From: Hymenobacter psychrophilus
Lineage (GTDB): Bacteria; Bacteroidota; Bacteroidia; Cytophagales; Hymenobacteraceae
Assembly (NCBI RefSeq): GCF_900107135.1
Contig: NZ_FNOV01000002.1
Span: forward strand, 186,001-250,000
DNA: 64,000 nt
Direction: 5' to 3'
Below the pieces are notes generated by a model. The model had not been told where the DNA came from. It worked only from the letters and a program-made list of their open reading frames with translations, and ran no database searches. A program made the position numbers and the translations under genes. Within the stretch, counting starts at the first letter, position 1. Every line of letters begins with the position of its first letter. This document shows positions 24,312-56,098 of this stretch, in pieces.

Positions 24312-24450
24312 AAGTAAAAATTGAAAGTGAAAAATTAAAAATCTGACAGTTTGATTCGGTATTTTTTTTAAATGGAGCAGCTAAATAAGGTCTTTCGAAA
24401 TCCGGCGTACGGCAATTTTTAATTTTTCACTTTTAATTTTTAATTCCCTT
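24312..24450. repeat. Paired 7-bp word element before the SLC5 sensor kinase
   Basis: The left arm (24312-24346) has five A-rich 7-bp words, for example AAGTAAA AATTGAA. The right arm (24416-24450) has the complementary T-rich words TTTTTAA TTTTTCA and further copies. The right arm contains the stop codon of the small membrane protein; the left arm ends nine bases from the kinase ATG. The two arms can pair over about 30 bp. Confidence 0.82.
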
Positions 24451-33578: not shown

Positions 33579-33690
33579 TAATTAAAAATTAAAAGTGAAG
33601 AATTAAAAAATCGAGAACAGCTCCTTTGGGGTCGGACTGGCCGCCAGCAGAGTAATTTTCGACTTTTAGTTCTCAATTTTTAATTCCCGC
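33579..33690. repeat. Paired 7-bp word element between tsaE and ald
   Basis: Left arm 33579-33613 has A-rich 7-bp words, beginning TAATTAA AAATTAA. The right arm 33656-33690 has complementary words such as CTTTTAG and TTTTTAA. The right arm contains the tsaE stop codon; the left arm lies seven bases from the ald ATG. The sequence is close to the elements at 21332 and 24312. Confidence 0.82.
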
Positions 33691-39121: not shown

Positions 39122-39328
39122 AGTGGTTAGTAGTTAGTGGTTAGTGGTTAGTGGTTAGTGGTTAGTGGTTAGTGGTTAGTGGTTAGTGGAAGAACGCCAT
39201 TCTGAGTAGAACGAAGAATGTCAGGCATTACTATTGAAACAGCTGTTGTTCAATAACTTCAAACGCGGTGGTTTGCTGCAGTTGAAACGGCCCTAACCAC
39301 TAACCACTAATCACTAGTCACTAACCCC
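39122..39328. repeat. Paired 7-bp word element (AGTGGTT) before lpxD
   Basis: The left arm (39122-39189) has nine tandem AGTGGTT units, with one variant AGTAGTT, plus a partial unit. The right arm (39294-39328) has five units of the complement: TAACCAC twice, then TAATCAC, TAGTCAC and TAACCCC. The left arm begins two bases after the HD stop codon. The right arm ends at the lpxD -7 box, 13 bases from the ATG. The centre contains a partial GTCATnCTGAG REP-like segment around 39193. Confidence 0.93.
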
Positions 39329-39336
39329 TACTTTTG
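39329..39336 (+). promoter_or_regulatory. Promoter -7 box for lpxD
   Basis: TACTTTTG matches TAnnTTTG and directly abuts the 7-bp word array, which therefore fills the -10 to -45 region. The start codon is only five bases downstream, so the mRNA would be almost leaderless. Confidence 0.5.
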
Positions 39337-41922: not shown

Positions 41923-42025
41923 CTGAATTAGTAATTGGTAATTAAGAATGAATAATTCGCTGTTTTGTGCGCTACTTGAGCCAACGGGGAAATTCTTAAT
42001 TATTAATTCTTAATTACTAATTAAA
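41923..42025. repeat. Paired 7-bp word element between lpxC-fabZ and lpxA
   Basis: Left arm 41923-41957 has words ending in AATT (CTGAATT AGTAATT and so on). The right arm 41991-42025 has five words beginning AATT, starting AATTCTT AATTATT, exactly periodic at 7 bp. The left arm begins one base after the lpxC-fabZ stop codon; the right arm ends six bases before the lpxA ATG. This is the cleanest example of the layout. Confidence 0.9.
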
Positions 42026-46568: not shown

Positions 46569-47951
46569 ATGGCACGAATGGAAATGACGATGCCCAAGAT
46601 GGGCGAATCCATCATGGAAGGCACCGTTCTCAAATGGCTCAAACAAGTAGGCGACGCCATCGAGCAGGACGAATCGGTGCTGGAAGTGGCCACCGACAAG
46701 GTTGATACCGAAGTTCCGGCCCTGCACGCTGGTGTTCTGCAGGAAATTCTGGTGGAGGAAGGCCAGGTAGTGGCGGTGGGCGCACCCATTGCCGTGATTG
46801 AAACCGACGCCGCCAACGCCGGCGCTCCGGCCCCCGCCGCTGCCCCGGCCGCGCCCGCCGCCTCCGACAATGGCGCGGCTACAGCTGCTGCCCAGGTGCC
46901 CCACGTGCCGGCCGAGACGCCCCCGGCTGCCGGTGCCGCCCAGCCCCAGGCCGGCCGCTTCTACTCGCCGCTGGTGATGAGCATTGCCCGCGAAGAAGGC
47001 ATCAGCATGGGCGACCTGGAGTACCTGCCCGGTACGGGCAACGAAGGCCGCGTAACCAAAAAAGACATCCTCGACTACGTGGCCGGCGGCAAACAGCCCC
47101 TCACGCCGCAGGCCGCTACCCCGGCCGCTGCTGCTGCTCCGGCAGCTGCCGCTACTCCGGCCGCCGCGCCAACTGCCGCTCCGGCCGCTGCCAAGCCGCA
47201 GGCTGCTGCCACTTCAACCAAGGCAGTACCTTCCATCAGTGGTGGGCAGGAGTTGATCGAGATGGACCGGATGCGCAAGATGATTGCCCAGCGCATGGTG
47301 GACTCGAAACGCATTTCGCCCCACGTAACGAGCTTCGTGGAGGCCGACGTGACCGACATCGTGAACTGGCGCAACAAGCACAAGGATGCCTACAAGAAGC
47401 GCGAGGGCGAAAACCTGACCTTCACCCCCATCTTCATCCAGGCCATTGCCCGCGCCATTCAGGACTACCCGCTGATCAACGTCTCCATCGATGGCGACTA
47501 CATCATCAAAAAGCGCGACATCAACATTGGCGTGGCCGTGGCGCTGCCCTCGGGCAACCTCATCGTGCCGGTTATTCACAACGCCGACCAGCTCAACCTT
47601 AATGGACTGAGCAAGAAGCTGAACGATTTGGCCAACCGCGCCCGCACCAACAAGCTCAAGCCCGAAGACCTGGAAGGCGGCACCTACACCGTGTCCAACG
47701 TCGGCTCGTTTGGCAACGTGATGGGCACGCCCATCATCATGCAGCCCCAGGTGGCCATCATGGCCGTGGGCGCCATCAAAAAGAAGCCCGCCGTCATCGA
47801 AACGCCCCAGGGCGACCTGATTGGTGTGCGCCACTTCATGTTCCTGAGCCACAGCTACGACCACCGCGTGGTCGATGGCTCGCTCGGCGGCATGTTCGTG
47901 CGCCGCGTGGCCGACTACCTGGAGCAGTTCGACCCTAACACGAGCATCTAG
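46569..47951 (+). CDS. 2-oxo acid dehydrogenase E2 (dihydrolipoamide acyltransferase)
   Basis: This is the lipoyl-bearing acyltransferase core of a 2-oxo acid dehydrogenase complex. Domains in order: lipoyl domain (1-78) with the lipoylated Lys43 in ATDKVDTEVP; an Ala/Pro linker; the E3/E1-binding domain (SPLVMSIAREEGISMGDLEYL, about 135-172); a second Ala/Pro linker to about 215; and the catalytic domain with MRKMIAQRMVDSKRISPHVT and the active-site His in SYDHRVVDGSLGG at about 431. A single lipoyl domain and DKVDTEVP are most like branched-chain or mixed-substrate E2s of Bacteroidota; pyruvate or 2-oxoglutarate cannot be excluded. No E1 or E3 gene is adjacent. A 12-copy heptanucleotide array begins just before its stop codon ends. 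Confidence 0.93.
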   Translation: MARMEMTMPKMGESIMEGTVLKWLKQVGDAIEQDESVLEVATDKVDTEVPALHAGVLQEILVEEGQVVAVGAPIAVIETDAANAGAPAPAAAPAAPAASDNGAATAAAQVPHVPAETPPAAGAAQPQAGRFYSPLVMSIAREEGISMGDLEYLPGTGNEGRVTKKDILDYVAGGKQPLTPQAATPAAAAAPAAAATPAAAPTAAPAAAKPQAAATSTKAVPSISGGQELIEMDRMRKMIAQRMVDSKRISPHVTSFVEADVTDIVNWRNKHKDAYKKREGENLTFTPIFIQAIARAIQDYPLINVSIDGDYIIKKRDINIGVAVALPSGNLIVPVIHNADQLNLNGLSKKLNDLANRARTNKLKPEDLEGGTYTVSNVGSFGNVMGTPIIMQPQVAIMAVGAIKKKPAVIETPQGDLIGVRHFMFLSHSYDHRVVDGSLGGMFVRRVADYLEQFDPNTSI

Positions 47952-48033
47952 GGCTTAGGGCTTAGGGCTTAGGGCTTAGGGCTTAGGGCTTAGGGCTTAG
48001 GGCTTAGGGCTTAGGGCTTAGGGCTTAGGGCTT
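47950..48033. repeat. Tandem array of 12 AGGGCTT units
   Basis: Twelve exact copies of the 7-bp unit AGGGCTT start in the E2 stop codon (47949-47951) and are followed by a partial AGG. No complementary arm is seen. A perfect array of this kind is prone to slippage, so copy number should vary between strains. A terminator hairpin follows 12 bases on. Confidence 0.96.
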
Positions 48034-48044
48034 AGGATGTATGG

Positions 48045-48080
48045 AAAAGGCCCCGTCGTGGTTACACGGCGGGGCCTTTT
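48045..48080 (+). terminator. Intrinsic terminator after the E2 gene
   Basis: AAAAGGCCCCGTCGTG (48045-48060) pairs with 48065-48080 with one G-U, around a 4-base loop, ending in TTTT. Confidence 0.88.
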
Positions 48081-48165
48081 CGGTGGCCTGGGCTTACTTT
48101 TGCCTATCGATGGCCTGGTCGGCTGCGCCAATCGGGCCTTTGGCTTTTACTCGTTATTCCTCCTC

Positions 48166-53401: not shown

Positions 53402-56098
53402 TCACAGCCCGGCCAGCTGCTGCTCCAGGGCCGCAATCTGGGCTTCGGCGTCGGCCAGCTTCTGCCGCTCACGCGCCACCAGCTCGGGCTTGGCGTTGGC
53501 CACAAACTTCTCATTGCTCAGCTTCTTGCTCACCGAGTCGCGGAAGCCTTGGGCATAGTCGATTTCCTTGGTCAGGCGCTCCTTCTCAGCCCCGAGGTCA
53601 ATCTGGCCTTCGAGGGGCACGAAGAACTCGGCCCCGCCGGCCACGAAACCCACGGCGGCAGCCGGGGCGGCCTCGACCACCAAAATATCGGTGAGGGCAG
53701 CCAGCTTGCGGATAATGCCGGTGTAGTCGGCCAACAGGGTTTGCAGGGCGGGGTCGGTGGTTTTAGCGGCCAGCGTGAGGGGCTTGTTGGGGCCGAGGCC
53801 CTTCTGGTTGCGGATGGTGCGTACGCCGCCCACTATTTCCAGCGCCTGGGCCATGCGGGCCAGCAGGGCCGGCGCCTCGGCCACGGACTGGGGCTTGGGC
53901 CAGGCTGCCACGCAGGCGTACTCTTTCGGGCCGCGCTCCTGCAGCTCGTGCCAGATTTCCTCCGTGATAAAGGGCATGAACGGGTGCAGCAGGCGCAGCA
54001 GCGTTTCGAGGTAGGCGTTGGTGTGGCGCAGGGTTTCGGGGTCGATGGGAGCCTGGTAGGCAGGCTTGATCATCTCCAGATACACCGAGCAGAAATCGTC
54101 CCAGACCAACTTGTACACCGTCATCAGGGCATCCGAAATCCGAAATTTGACGAAGTGCTCGTCCATCTCGGCAATGGCGGCCTGCAGGCGCGCGCCAAAC
54201 CACTCCACGGCCTTGTCGTTCACGAAGGCAAGCGCGGCATCCACTTCCCAGCCTTTGGTCAGGCGGAAGGCGTTCCAGAGCTTGTTGGTGAAGTTGCGGC
54301 CCTGCTCCACCAGCTTCTCATCATAGAGCAAATCGTTGCCGGCCGGGGCCGAGAACAGCATGCCGGTGCGCACCCCGTCGGCCCCGAACTGGGCAATCAG
54401 GTCGAGCGGGTCGGGCGAGTTGCCGAGCTGCTTGCTCATTTTGCGGCCCTGGCCGTCGCGCACAATGCCGGTGAGGTACACGTTGCGGAAGGGCACTTCC
54501 TTGCGGAATTCCAGCCCGGCCATAATCATGCGCGCCACCCAGAAAAACAGGATGTCCGGGCCCGTTACCAGGTCGTTGGTGGGGTAGAAGTAGTTGACGT
54601 CGGCGTTGTCGGGGTCGGCGAAACCATCGAACACCGAAATCGGCCACAGCCACGACGAAAACCAGGTGTCGAGCACATCCTCATCCTGGCGCAAATCGGT
54701 AAGCTGGAGCGCCGCGTTGCCGGTCTGCTCACGGGCCTGAGCCAGCGCCTCGTCGGGCGTGAGGGCCACCACGTAGGTGCCGTCGGGCAGGTAGTAGGCC
54801 GGAATCTGCTGGCCCCACCAGAGCTGGCGCGAGATGCACCAGTCGCGCACGTTCTCCATCCACACCCGGTAGGTGTTCTTGAACTTGGCCGGGTGCAGCT
54901 GCACGGTGTCGTTTTCGACCACCGCCAGCGCAGGCTTGGCCAAGTGTTCCATTTTCAGGAACCACTGCAAACTCAGCCGCGGCTCAATTACGGCCTTGGT
55001 GCGCTCCGAGGTCTGCACGATGCTGGCGTACTCCTCCACCTTCACCAGGTGGCCGGCCTCGTCGAGGTCCTTCACAATGTTGCGGCGGGCCGCGAACCGG
55101 TCCTGGCCCACGTAGAGCTGCGCTTTTTCGTTGAGCGTGCCGTCGTTGTTCAGAATATCGATGACGGGTAGCTTGTGCTTCACGCCCAGCTCATAGTCGT
55201 TCAAGTCGTGGGCCGGCGTCACCTTCAGGGCCCCGGTTCCGAAATCGATGCTCACATACTCGTCCAGAATCACCGGAATCTCGCGGCCCAGCAGCGGAAT
55301 CCGCAGCTTCGCCCCGTGCAGGTGCGTGTAGCGCGGGTCGTTCGGGTTCACGGCCACCGCCACGTCGGCCATAATGGTTTCTGGGCGGGAAGTAGCTATA
55401 ACTAAGCTTTTAGCTGATAGCTGTTGGCTGTTAGCTTCGGTCGGCGGAGAGCTATCAGCTAACAGCTTTAAGCTATCAGCTGAAAGCTCGTACTTCAAAT
55501 AGTACATCTTGGCCATCACGTCCTTCGGGATGACCTCCTCATCCGACAAGGCCGTCTGGCCCAGCGGGTCCCAGTTGACCATGCGCACGCCGCGGTAGAT
55601 GAGGCCCTTCTGGTGCAGATCCACGAACGTGCGCAGCACGGCATCAGTCAGGGCCGGCTCCATCGTAAAGCGGGTCCGGTCCCAGTCGCAGGAGGCGCCC
55701 AACTGCTTAAGCTGCTCGAGAATAATGCCGCCGTACTTTTCCTTCCAGGCAAAAGCGTGCTCCAAAAACTGCTCCCGGGTCAGGTCCTTTTTCTCGATGC
55801 CCTGCTCCTTGAGCAAGGCCACCACTTTGGCCTCGGTGGCAATGGAGGCGTGGTCGGTGCCGGGCACCCAGCAGGCCTCAAAGCCCTGCATCCGGGCCCG
55901 GCGCACCAGCACGTCCTGAATGGTATTGTTGAGCATATGGCCCATGTGCAGCACGCCCGTTACGTTGGGCGGCGGAATCACGACCGAATAGGGCTGCTTG
56001 CGGGGGTTGGCCTTGGCTTTGAAAAAGCCCTGCTCCTGCCAGCGCTGGTACCACTTGGCTTCAACGTTGGCGGGGATATAGGTTTTGGCGATGGTCAT
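53402..56098 (-). CDS. valS: Valyl-tRNA synthetase with an in-frame palindromic insertion
   Basis: ValRS charges tRNA-Val with valine and edits misactivated threonine. The 898-residue protein carries the HIGH-type motif PPNVTGVLHMGHMLN at about 50, the editing (CP1) domain at about 190-390, KMSKS-type GRKMSKQLGNSP at about 553, the anticodon-binding domain and a C-terminal coiled coil (from about 830, DLGAEKERLTKEIDYAQG). Just inside CP1, between YLKYEL and VIATSRPETIMADVA, about 28 residues (204-232: rich in Ser, Ala, Leu and Asp) are encoded by an inverted pair of 7-bp word arrays. Other ValRS have only a short turn here. The enzyme must tolerate it, as valS is essential. A consensus -7 box lies upstream. 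Confidence 0.96.
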   Translation of the reverse strand: MTIAKTYIPANVEAKWYQRWQEQGFFKAKANPRKQPYSVVIPPPNVTGVLHMGHMLNNTIQDVLVRRARMQGFEACWVPGTDHASIATEAKVVALLKEQGIEKKDLTREQFLEHAFAWKEKYGGIILEQLKQLGASCDWDRTRFTMEPALTDAVLRTFVDLHQKGLIYRGVRMVNWDPLGQTALSDEEVIPKDVMAKMYYLKYELSADSLKLLADSSPPTEANSQQLSAKSLVIATSRPETIMADVAVAVNPNDPRYTHLHGAKLRIPLLGREIPVILDEYVSIDFGTGALKVTPAHDLNDYELGVKHKLPVIDILNNDGTLNEKAQLYVGQDRFAARRNIVKDLDEAGHLVKVEEYASIVQTSERTKAVIEPRLSLQWFLKMEHLAKPALAVVENDTVQLHPAKFKNTYRVWMENVRDWCISRQLWWGQQIPAYYLPDGTYVVALTPDEALAQAREQTGNAALQLTDLRQDEDVLDTWFSSWLWPISVFDGFADPDNADVNYFYPTNDLVTGPDILFFWVARMIMAGLEFRKEVPFRNVYLTGIVRDGQGRKMSKQLGNSPDPLDLIAQFGADGVRTGMLFSAPAGNDLLYDEKLVEQGRNFTNKLWNAFRLTKGWEVDAALAFVNDKAVEWFGARLQAAIAEMDEHFVKFRISDALMTVYKLVWDDFCSVYLEMIKPAYQAPIDPETLRHTNAYLETLLRLLHPFMPFITEEIWHELQERGPKEYACVAAWPKPQSVAEAPALLARMAQALEIVGGVRTIRNQKGLGPNKPLTLAAKTTDPALQTLLADYTGIIRKLAALTDILVVEAAPAAAVGFVAGGAEFFVPLEGQIDLGAEKERLTKEIDYAQGFRDSVSKKLSNEKFVANAKPELVARERQKLADAEAQIAALEQQLAGL
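55404..55490. repeat. Paired 7-bp word element inside valS
   Basis: Left arm (55404-55438) contains TAGCTGA TAGCTGT and variants; the right arm (55450-55490) contains six words starting AGCT, such as AGCTATC AGCTAAC, exactly at 7-bp steps. The arms are complementary around about 12 bp. The element length keeps the reading frame, and no stop codon falls in the used frame. Confidence 0.9.

Follow-up and report, generated by a model that had tools for sequence, protein, structure and literature searches.

A heptamer-word hairpin in the reading frame of Hymenobacter psychrophilus valS, probably a tolerated copy of a mostly intergenic repeat family

The valS locus and its insert

We analysed 64,000 nucleotides of Hymenobacter psychrophilus (positions 186,001 to 250,000 of contig NZ_FNOV01000002.1; hereafter the window, with coordinates counted from its first letter), in which valS, the gene for valyl-tRNA synthetase (ValRS), carries a palindromic insert within its reading frame. 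The insert is a heptamer-word hairpin, by which we mean a short loop flanked by two arrays of one 7-bp word in inverted orientation. It is probably a tolerated, near-neutral in-frame copy from a genome-wide family of such hairpins, most of which are intergenic. The locus comprises the following features.

53402-56098, minus strand: valS, valyl-tRNA synthetase, 898 amino acids (open reading frame and profile match)
55404-55490, minus strand: word hairpin inserted in frame, covering about residues 204-232 and flanked by model strands 189-205 and 231-236
55405-55436, no strand assigned: first arm on the plus strand, AGCTNNN-type words, 3' arm in the sense of the gene (repeat search and Tandem Repeats Finder, TRF)
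55437-55456, no strand assigned: spacer of 20 nt between the arms as aligned by the repeat search
55457-55488, no strand assigned: second arm on the plus strand, AGCTNNN-type words, 5' arm in the sense of the gene (repeat search and TRF)

The valS open reading frame (ORF) is intact over 898 codons and scores 1112 bits against NCBIfam NF004349 (valine--tRNA ligase). An earlier note on this DNA had traced about 28 residues at 204-232 to inverted 7-bp word arrays designed like the intergenic elements, and this was borne out: both arms are 32 nt long, 84% complementary and of period 7 according to TRF, and the window holds further elements of the same design. Lag-7 identity amounted to 0.61 in the 87-nt insert, whereas 270 other windows of this coding sequence (CDS) had a mean of 0.26 (standard deviation 0.04, maximum 0.35). 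A scan of lags 4-15 over valS from this genome and 29 relatives (30 loci) gave hits at lag 7 in 13 loci, at lag 14 in nine and at lag 6 in two, and at no other lag; the lag-7 hits listed with their positions all lay at the insert site. The GC content of the insert is 0.48, against 0.63 in the remaining valS CDS. Because the rest of the gene is richer in GC, the raw folding energy of the insert (-42.6) is not the gene minimum (-43.3); measured against dinucleotide shuffles, its fold z is -6.7. A search of positions 55200-55700 against Rfam gave eight matches, all below gathering scores and all to eukaryotic microRNA, small nucleolar RNA or long non-coding RNA families, none of them an intron.

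The earlier note had also described an insertion in frame. The frame is indeed kept, but the valS element is not a clean insertion. It replaces the native turn, which reads GQEGQ in many relatives, and elements of the AGCTNNN class (class A below) recode the bordering codons as well. Since the native turn is replaced, the net gain over short alleles is 19 residues (56 versus 37 in the segment from DEEV to RPET), fewer than the length of the insert. At the borders, where a miniature inverted-repeat transposable element (MITE) would have terminal inverted repeats and a target-site duplication, filled and empty alleles align uncleanly, with words extending into native codons.

Presence, absence and word class across the genus

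Of 101 genomes of the genus, 100 gave the N-terminal region of valS and 99 could be located by anchors; left out were G028, with a partial valS match that was not fetched, and L064 (G037), which was not located. The 99 located genes comprised 67 with a short turn, 29 with word inserts and three with other short inserts. The alignment of other Hymenobacter ValRS suggested by the earlier note thus revealed the insert as present, absent or of another length. The segment from DEEV to RPET measures 37 residues in short alleles (the turn is often VVGQEGQFLTVA), 49-73 in word inserts and 41-47 in the other inserts. Word inserts were assigned by eye to six classes: AGCTNNN (class A, seven inserts), GCAAGC-type (C, six), ACAACT (T, nine), GAACT (E, four), GAGTATT (S, two) and GAGGTGA (G, one). 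On a tree built from 843 columns of valS DNA, insert excluded, presence and absence require at least 19 changes, 13 of them forced by starred branches, and word class requires at least 25; the tree is based on valS alone, and short-tract recombination could inflate these counts.

Raw counts linked the state of valS to the words found in the genome. Class A genomes had a median of 110 AGCT matches versus 1 (p 3e-4), class T genomes a median of 5 ACAACT matches versus 0 (p 0.002), and genomes with any word insert had 23 matches versus 3 for those with short alleles (p 5.5e-7).

Outside the genus, we looked at 80 mostly distant Bacteroidota loci, of which 17 were dropped as the segment was not located; 42 of the remaining 63 segments have just 25-27 residues between KMY and RPET. 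Prevotella-like lineages possess a long loop of their own, common to them, in the same ValRS turn. In a fold test of other lineages (79 segments found among 101 loci tried), z fell below -2 for 13 of 34 long loops versus 6 of 45 short ones (Fisher p 0.016). Within this turn, C-rich palindromes were seen at L268 (z -8.9) and L276 (z -3.6), a perfect palindrome beginning with GTAG at L236 (one metagenome-assembled genome), a plain hairpin at L272 and 7-bp words at L178 and L264; L267 and L269 are palindromic by eye alone, with z of only -0.9 and -0.8. The ValRS turn is generally tolerant of length, and hairpin DNA has used it repeatedly.

Arm matching and the loop core

Fold z was below -2 in 25 of 29 word inserts versus 6 of 67 short alleles. 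Pairing energy of each left arm with its own right arm, summed over the 29 inserts, beat all 20,000 permutations of right arms. This matching largely follows word class, the mean pairing being -32.9 for own arms, -31.6 for arms of class-mates and -20.5 for arms of other classes. As own arms pair not significantly better than those of class-mates, arm complementarity seems to date from the laying down of the word, without later repair by selection.

A loop core, CAGAACGA, is present exactly in 12 of 32 inserts (4/6 in class C, 5/9 in T, 2/4 in E and 1/3 of the other inserts), and its distance to the SRPET codons downstream is always 54 or 57 nt. No exact copy was found in the 67 short alleles or in the seven class A inserts, the loops of which are for example CGAACGA or CGGACGA. 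One element elsewhere in genome G000 (L152/L153) also contains this core. Because the core recurs in three word classes plus one other insert, it looks as if an older loop stayed in place while both arms were rewritten. A single old loop with replaced arms is thereby favoured over wholly independent landings, at least for the classes sharing the core.

Many independent landings are an alternative to this rewriting step, not to the identity of the element. A mobile hairpin, either with a site preference or surviving only at tolerant sites, would arrive each time with the word of its host genome and would never be rewritten. We regard this as a plausible and serious alternative, if short of probable. 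It accords with the at least 13-19 changes in presence and absence, with the interspersed classes, with the unrelated palindromes in the same turn of other families and with the raw excess of their own word in class A and T genomes. The shared central core weighs against it, because separate landings should bring different loops, whereas the 12 inserts have the same core at practically the same place.

Several results, in turn, weigh against our reading of the insert as a copy of the genomic word family whose arms were replaced around a loop. As for the loop, no class A, S or G insert has the core, nor do some of those in C, T and E; separate gains may account for classes S and G and for the core-less inserts of C, T and E. 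As for the arms, own arms do not pair significantly better than those of class-mates (p 0.137, i.e. no within-class compensation), and the own right arm ranks first for just 5 of 29 left arms. As for the word stock, the strong raw association was not significant in phylogenetically independent pairs and is not relied on here: insert presence versus at least 20 matches gave 3.4 pairs for and 0.3 against (median p 0.25), class T versus at least three ACAACT matches 2.5 for and 0.3 against (median p 0.5), and class A versus at least three AGCT matches 0.8 for and 0 against (median p 1). Words of classes E and S are hardly found elsewhere (in 2 and 1 of 101 genomes with strict patterns). Finally, neither a target-site duplication nor mobilising machinery was identified for the valS element.

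Reading frame, protein structure and possible functions

That the frame is kept and stops are avoided, as the earlier note stated, holds across the genus: none of the 32 inserts contains an in-frame stop, while stops occur in both other forward frames of all 29 word inserts. In all seven class A and all nine class T inserts (16/16), C stands in place of the T of the word at would-be TAA or TAG codons, giving CAA or CAG. The ratio of nonsynonymous to synonymous substitution rates (dN/dS), calculated from equal-length pairs only (22 pairs), was 0.55, 0.46, 0.47, 0.47 and 0.16 in inserts of classes A, T, C, E and S, respectively (S being one pair), and 0.09, 0.11, 0.05, 0.12 and 0 in their flanks. 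Protein constraint on the insert is relaxed but not absent.

In an AlphaFold model (37 sequences; mean predicted local distance difference test score, pLDDT, 87.3), the insert is flanked by strands 189-205 and 231-236. Block means within it drop to 65 (residues 211-220) and 53 (221-230), and the helices drawn there (207-215 and 221-227) are of low confidence. The corresponding position in Thermus ValRS (1gax) is a tight turn, and a fold search of the Protein Data Bank returned only ValRS, IleRS and LeuRS structures among the top 50. The insert occupies a tight beta-turn at the entrance to the CP1 editing domain, a site that tolerates 12-36 extra residues. The structure prediction proposed in the earlier note, with its low-confidence loop between two strands, agrees with the placement made there in a turn at the start of the editing domain; the surface exposure claimed along with it is consistent with the model.

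A useful peptide, offering for example a new surface to tRNA, a partner or regulation, would be expected to lack stops, as all 32 inserts do, and to have a dN/dS below 1, as in four of five classes (about 0.5). However, stop avoidance and solubility alone could bring dN/dS below 1. Moreover, the peptide varies in sequence and length from one word class to another, absence is common, and the predicted loop is of low confidence. We therefore consider a useful peptide unlikely. Selection might alternatively keep the hairpin for a role in valS mRNA, for instance by pausing translation ahead of the editing domain or by shielding the transcript from decay. The strong predicted hairpins of most word inserts, the matching of arms across classes and the position at a domain border all fit such a role. 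On the other hand, 67 of 99 relatives do without the hairpin, compensation within classes gives no significant signal, and 21 of 34 long loops of other lineages do not fold below z -2, which makes an mRNA role improbable.

Word hairpins elsewhere in the window and genome

Besides valS, the window contains these elements, none with an assigned strand.

24312-24445: inverted pair of 7-bp arrays, TAAAAAT/AATTTTT word (TRF and pairing check)
33580-33685: weaker inverted pair, AATTAAA word, 70% complementary
39122-39330: inverted pair, AGTGGTT/CTAACCA word
41926-42023: inverted pair, AATTANT word
47949-48036: 12.6 perfect direct TAGGGCT copies, without an inverted word partner

The TAGGGCT array adjoins a terminator-like GGCCCCG hairpin (48044-48081). 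Long direct AGCTAAC arrays lie directly behind terminator-like hairpins, a layout that recurs at L102, L145 and L155.

Intergenic elements of the window are built from words other than AGCT, which is abundant elsewhere in the genome: the pattern AGCTNNNAGCTNNNAGCTNNNAGCT has 273 overlapping matches, its reversed control none. This pattern was present in 67 of the 101 genus genomes, with no hit of the reversed control in any, and the ACAACT pattern in 42, although some genomes also show a few matches to its reversed control. With CAATACT, the control was even commoner than the pattern itself. A lag-7 scan of 450 kb of this genome yielded 19 segments, corresponding to about ten elements of various words, versus one per run in three Markov-3 sequences. 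Lags 6, 9 and 12 were as common (21, 28 and 25 segments), but they are codon multiples; at the fair comparison lags of 5, 8, 10, 11 and 13 there were 2, 7, 2, 3 and 1 segments. Of 12 word places in these 450 kb, two lie inside ORFs of at least 100 codons, namely valS and one low-complexity stretch. Altogether, the word elements consist of tandem 7-bp units, are mostly intergenic and multi-copy, and form inverted pairs, with several words per genome.

Among 47 loci fetched around AGCT or ACAACT matches, seven have an ORF of at least 100 codons across the match. Four of these (L104, L113, L115 and L137) we accept as in-gene copies of the element; L129 is doubtful, and L132 and L134 we take to be chance ORFs. 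The remaining loci are intergenic by eye, many of the elements ending just before an ATG. At L137 (G098:C5, around 1500), ACAACT words lie in frame at two places after the helicase domain of a UvrD-type helicase. At L104 (G016:C1, around 1500), an inverted pair of AGCT words is in frame in an ORF whose B12-binding match is weak (20.9 bits, below the Pfam cut-off of 32.1).

A further coding case is lptE (Pfam PF04390), where the lipoprotein signal peptide is written in words: AISYQLLAIS-type from AGCTATC and LACSLWLVACS-type from AGCTTGC. A chain of at least three words within 75 nt before the lipobox Cys occurred in 22 of 49 located lptE loci, a sample biased by its composition (50 of 101 genomes, i.e. 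the 30 best matches and 20 hand-chosen ones, ten of them AGCT-rich; loci L288-L337, L310 not located), versus 14 of 1051 valS control pieces, all 14 at positions of the valS insert. Other lptE loci have a signal peptide in ordinary sequence; L318 corresponds to G000:C23:461159-461559. The claim of the earlier note that the element can move or grow in coding DNA therefore stands as far as presence/absence polymorphism and in-frame cases in lptE, the UvrD-type helicase and one more protein go; jumping and growth in place are not distinguished by these data.

Another contig holds the 3' part of valS a second time, as an incomplete copy with 92% identity to residues 683-898 (L101, G000:C19:152328-152975), 5.2 kb from an AGCT word hairpin (C19:158183-158316).

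Relation to known repeat families

Inserts of Rickettsia palindromic elements (RPEs), studied by Ogata in 2000 and 2002, reportedly occupy surface positions of proteins. According to PMC10969869, RPEs are about 150 bp long and contain an ORF for a conserved peptide. Like them, the word hairpins are palindromic DNA placed in frame inside unrelated protein genes with the frame kept (PMC10969869). The likeness drawn by the earlier note, which already pointed to a different sequence, is fair as an analogy. Unlike RPEs, the constant features here are period 7 and the inverted design, whereas the word varies and one site has different words in different species. Words and loops differed between the copies examined, in contrast to the conserved element sequence and peptide of RPE copies.

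Repetitive extragenic palindromic (REP) elements of the GTAG/CGTC type are likewise short palindromes, mostly intergenic and sometimes in frame; for such intragenic copies, in genes such as uvrA, PMC3733652 argues mostly against functional constraint. According to PMC3733652, these REPs are 20-40 bp long, have a fixed tag and linked tyrosine transposases, and are without 7-bp words. The valS insert, with its AGCTNNN arrays over 87 nt, has neither this length nor a GTAG or CGTC tag; the ValRS turn of L236 does hold the palindrome starting with GTAG mentioned above. Movement of REP-type palindromes by a Y1 transposase, as in REP-associated tyrosine transposases (RAYTs) flanked by their own repeat, is nevertheless worth weighing, since one Y1_Tnp gene was found in this genome (84.6 bits). 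Its flanks (L287, G000:C36:154241-154582) hold CCCTGGG-type palindromes and no period-7 array at the threshold used. We reject the word hairpin as the REP of this sole Y1 gene found, other palindromes adjoining it, and consider the explanation very unlikely. The Y1 gene with its CCCTGGG-type palindromes has a REPtron-like layout.

Closer in unit length are the TAACTGA heptamer repeats, described in PMC4679880 as 7-bp words, mostly intergenic, in hosts that include Bacteroidetes, some lying in ORFs with the same stop-codon logic. The word elements share their tandem 7-bp units, mostly intergenic location and multiple copies, which also characterise short tandemly repeated repetitive (STRR) sequences. 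They differ in forming inverted pairs from several words per genome, while TAACTGA repeats, according to PMC4679880, are arrays of a single word in direct orientation, apart from one inverted case, and the sets inside ORFs are located mainly at the protein periphery. Degenerate heptamers pairing into a hairpin are also found in the P6b stem of the Nostoc tRNA-Leu intron, with variable copy number and two classes (PMC3488679). The valS insert similarly has complementary heptamers on both sides of the stem, but those of Nostoc reside in a group I intron (PMC3488679) and those of valS in a continuous reading frame. Finally, the palindromic amphipathic repeat coding sequence of Mollicutes and other bacteria is also a coding palindromic repeat (PMC2996958), a likeness by description only. 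In the open-licence PubMed Central (PMC) literature, we found no report of heptamer-word hairpins in valS or in Hymenobacter, nor in lptE, although no search named lptE.

Origin of the insert

To return to the reading of the insert as a tolerated copy, we propose that the word stock of the genome gave rise, by copying or growth, to a word hairpin in a tolerant turn of this essential enzyme. Purifying selection would then have kept frame, freedom from stops and solubility, the insert drifting otherwise. Words of both arms might be replaced together while the loop stays, either by template switching in the hairpin or by conversion from other word arrays, and empty alleles may persist or return by homologous recombination. 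We infer that the peptide is made, and that it is tolerated rather than useful. More tentatively, and with some doubt, word hairpins may be a class of elements united by a rule (period 7, inverted pair) rather than by sequence, with arms that are rewritten together at a fixed site while the loop is kept, by hairpin-templated or array-to-array copying, also inside essential genes (loops of valS, signal peptides of lptE).

While translated RPEs and REPs have a recognisable sequence per family, here a single site, defined to the codon, is either empty or occupied by one of six words among members of a genus, and in some other families it is filled with unrelated palindromes. Relatives with nothing or a different word at the same site suggest entry and rewriting of repeat DNA inside a core protein. 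They also provide natural before-and-after pairs for studying the origin of the element, arm matching through a change of word and the tolerance of a tRNA synthetase. Judging from lptE, the same words may also turn into a functional signal peptide.

An ancestral ValRS loop with chance repetitiveness, for which the earlier note had named conservation of these residues in distant Bacteroidota as the decisive sign, can practically be dismissed: although the turn varies in length among Bacteroidota, it is short in two thirds of the same-genus genes (67/99), in 42 of 63 distant segments and in Thermus, the lag-7 scans gave no signal elsewhere in the CDS, and the word pattern recurs throughout the genome.

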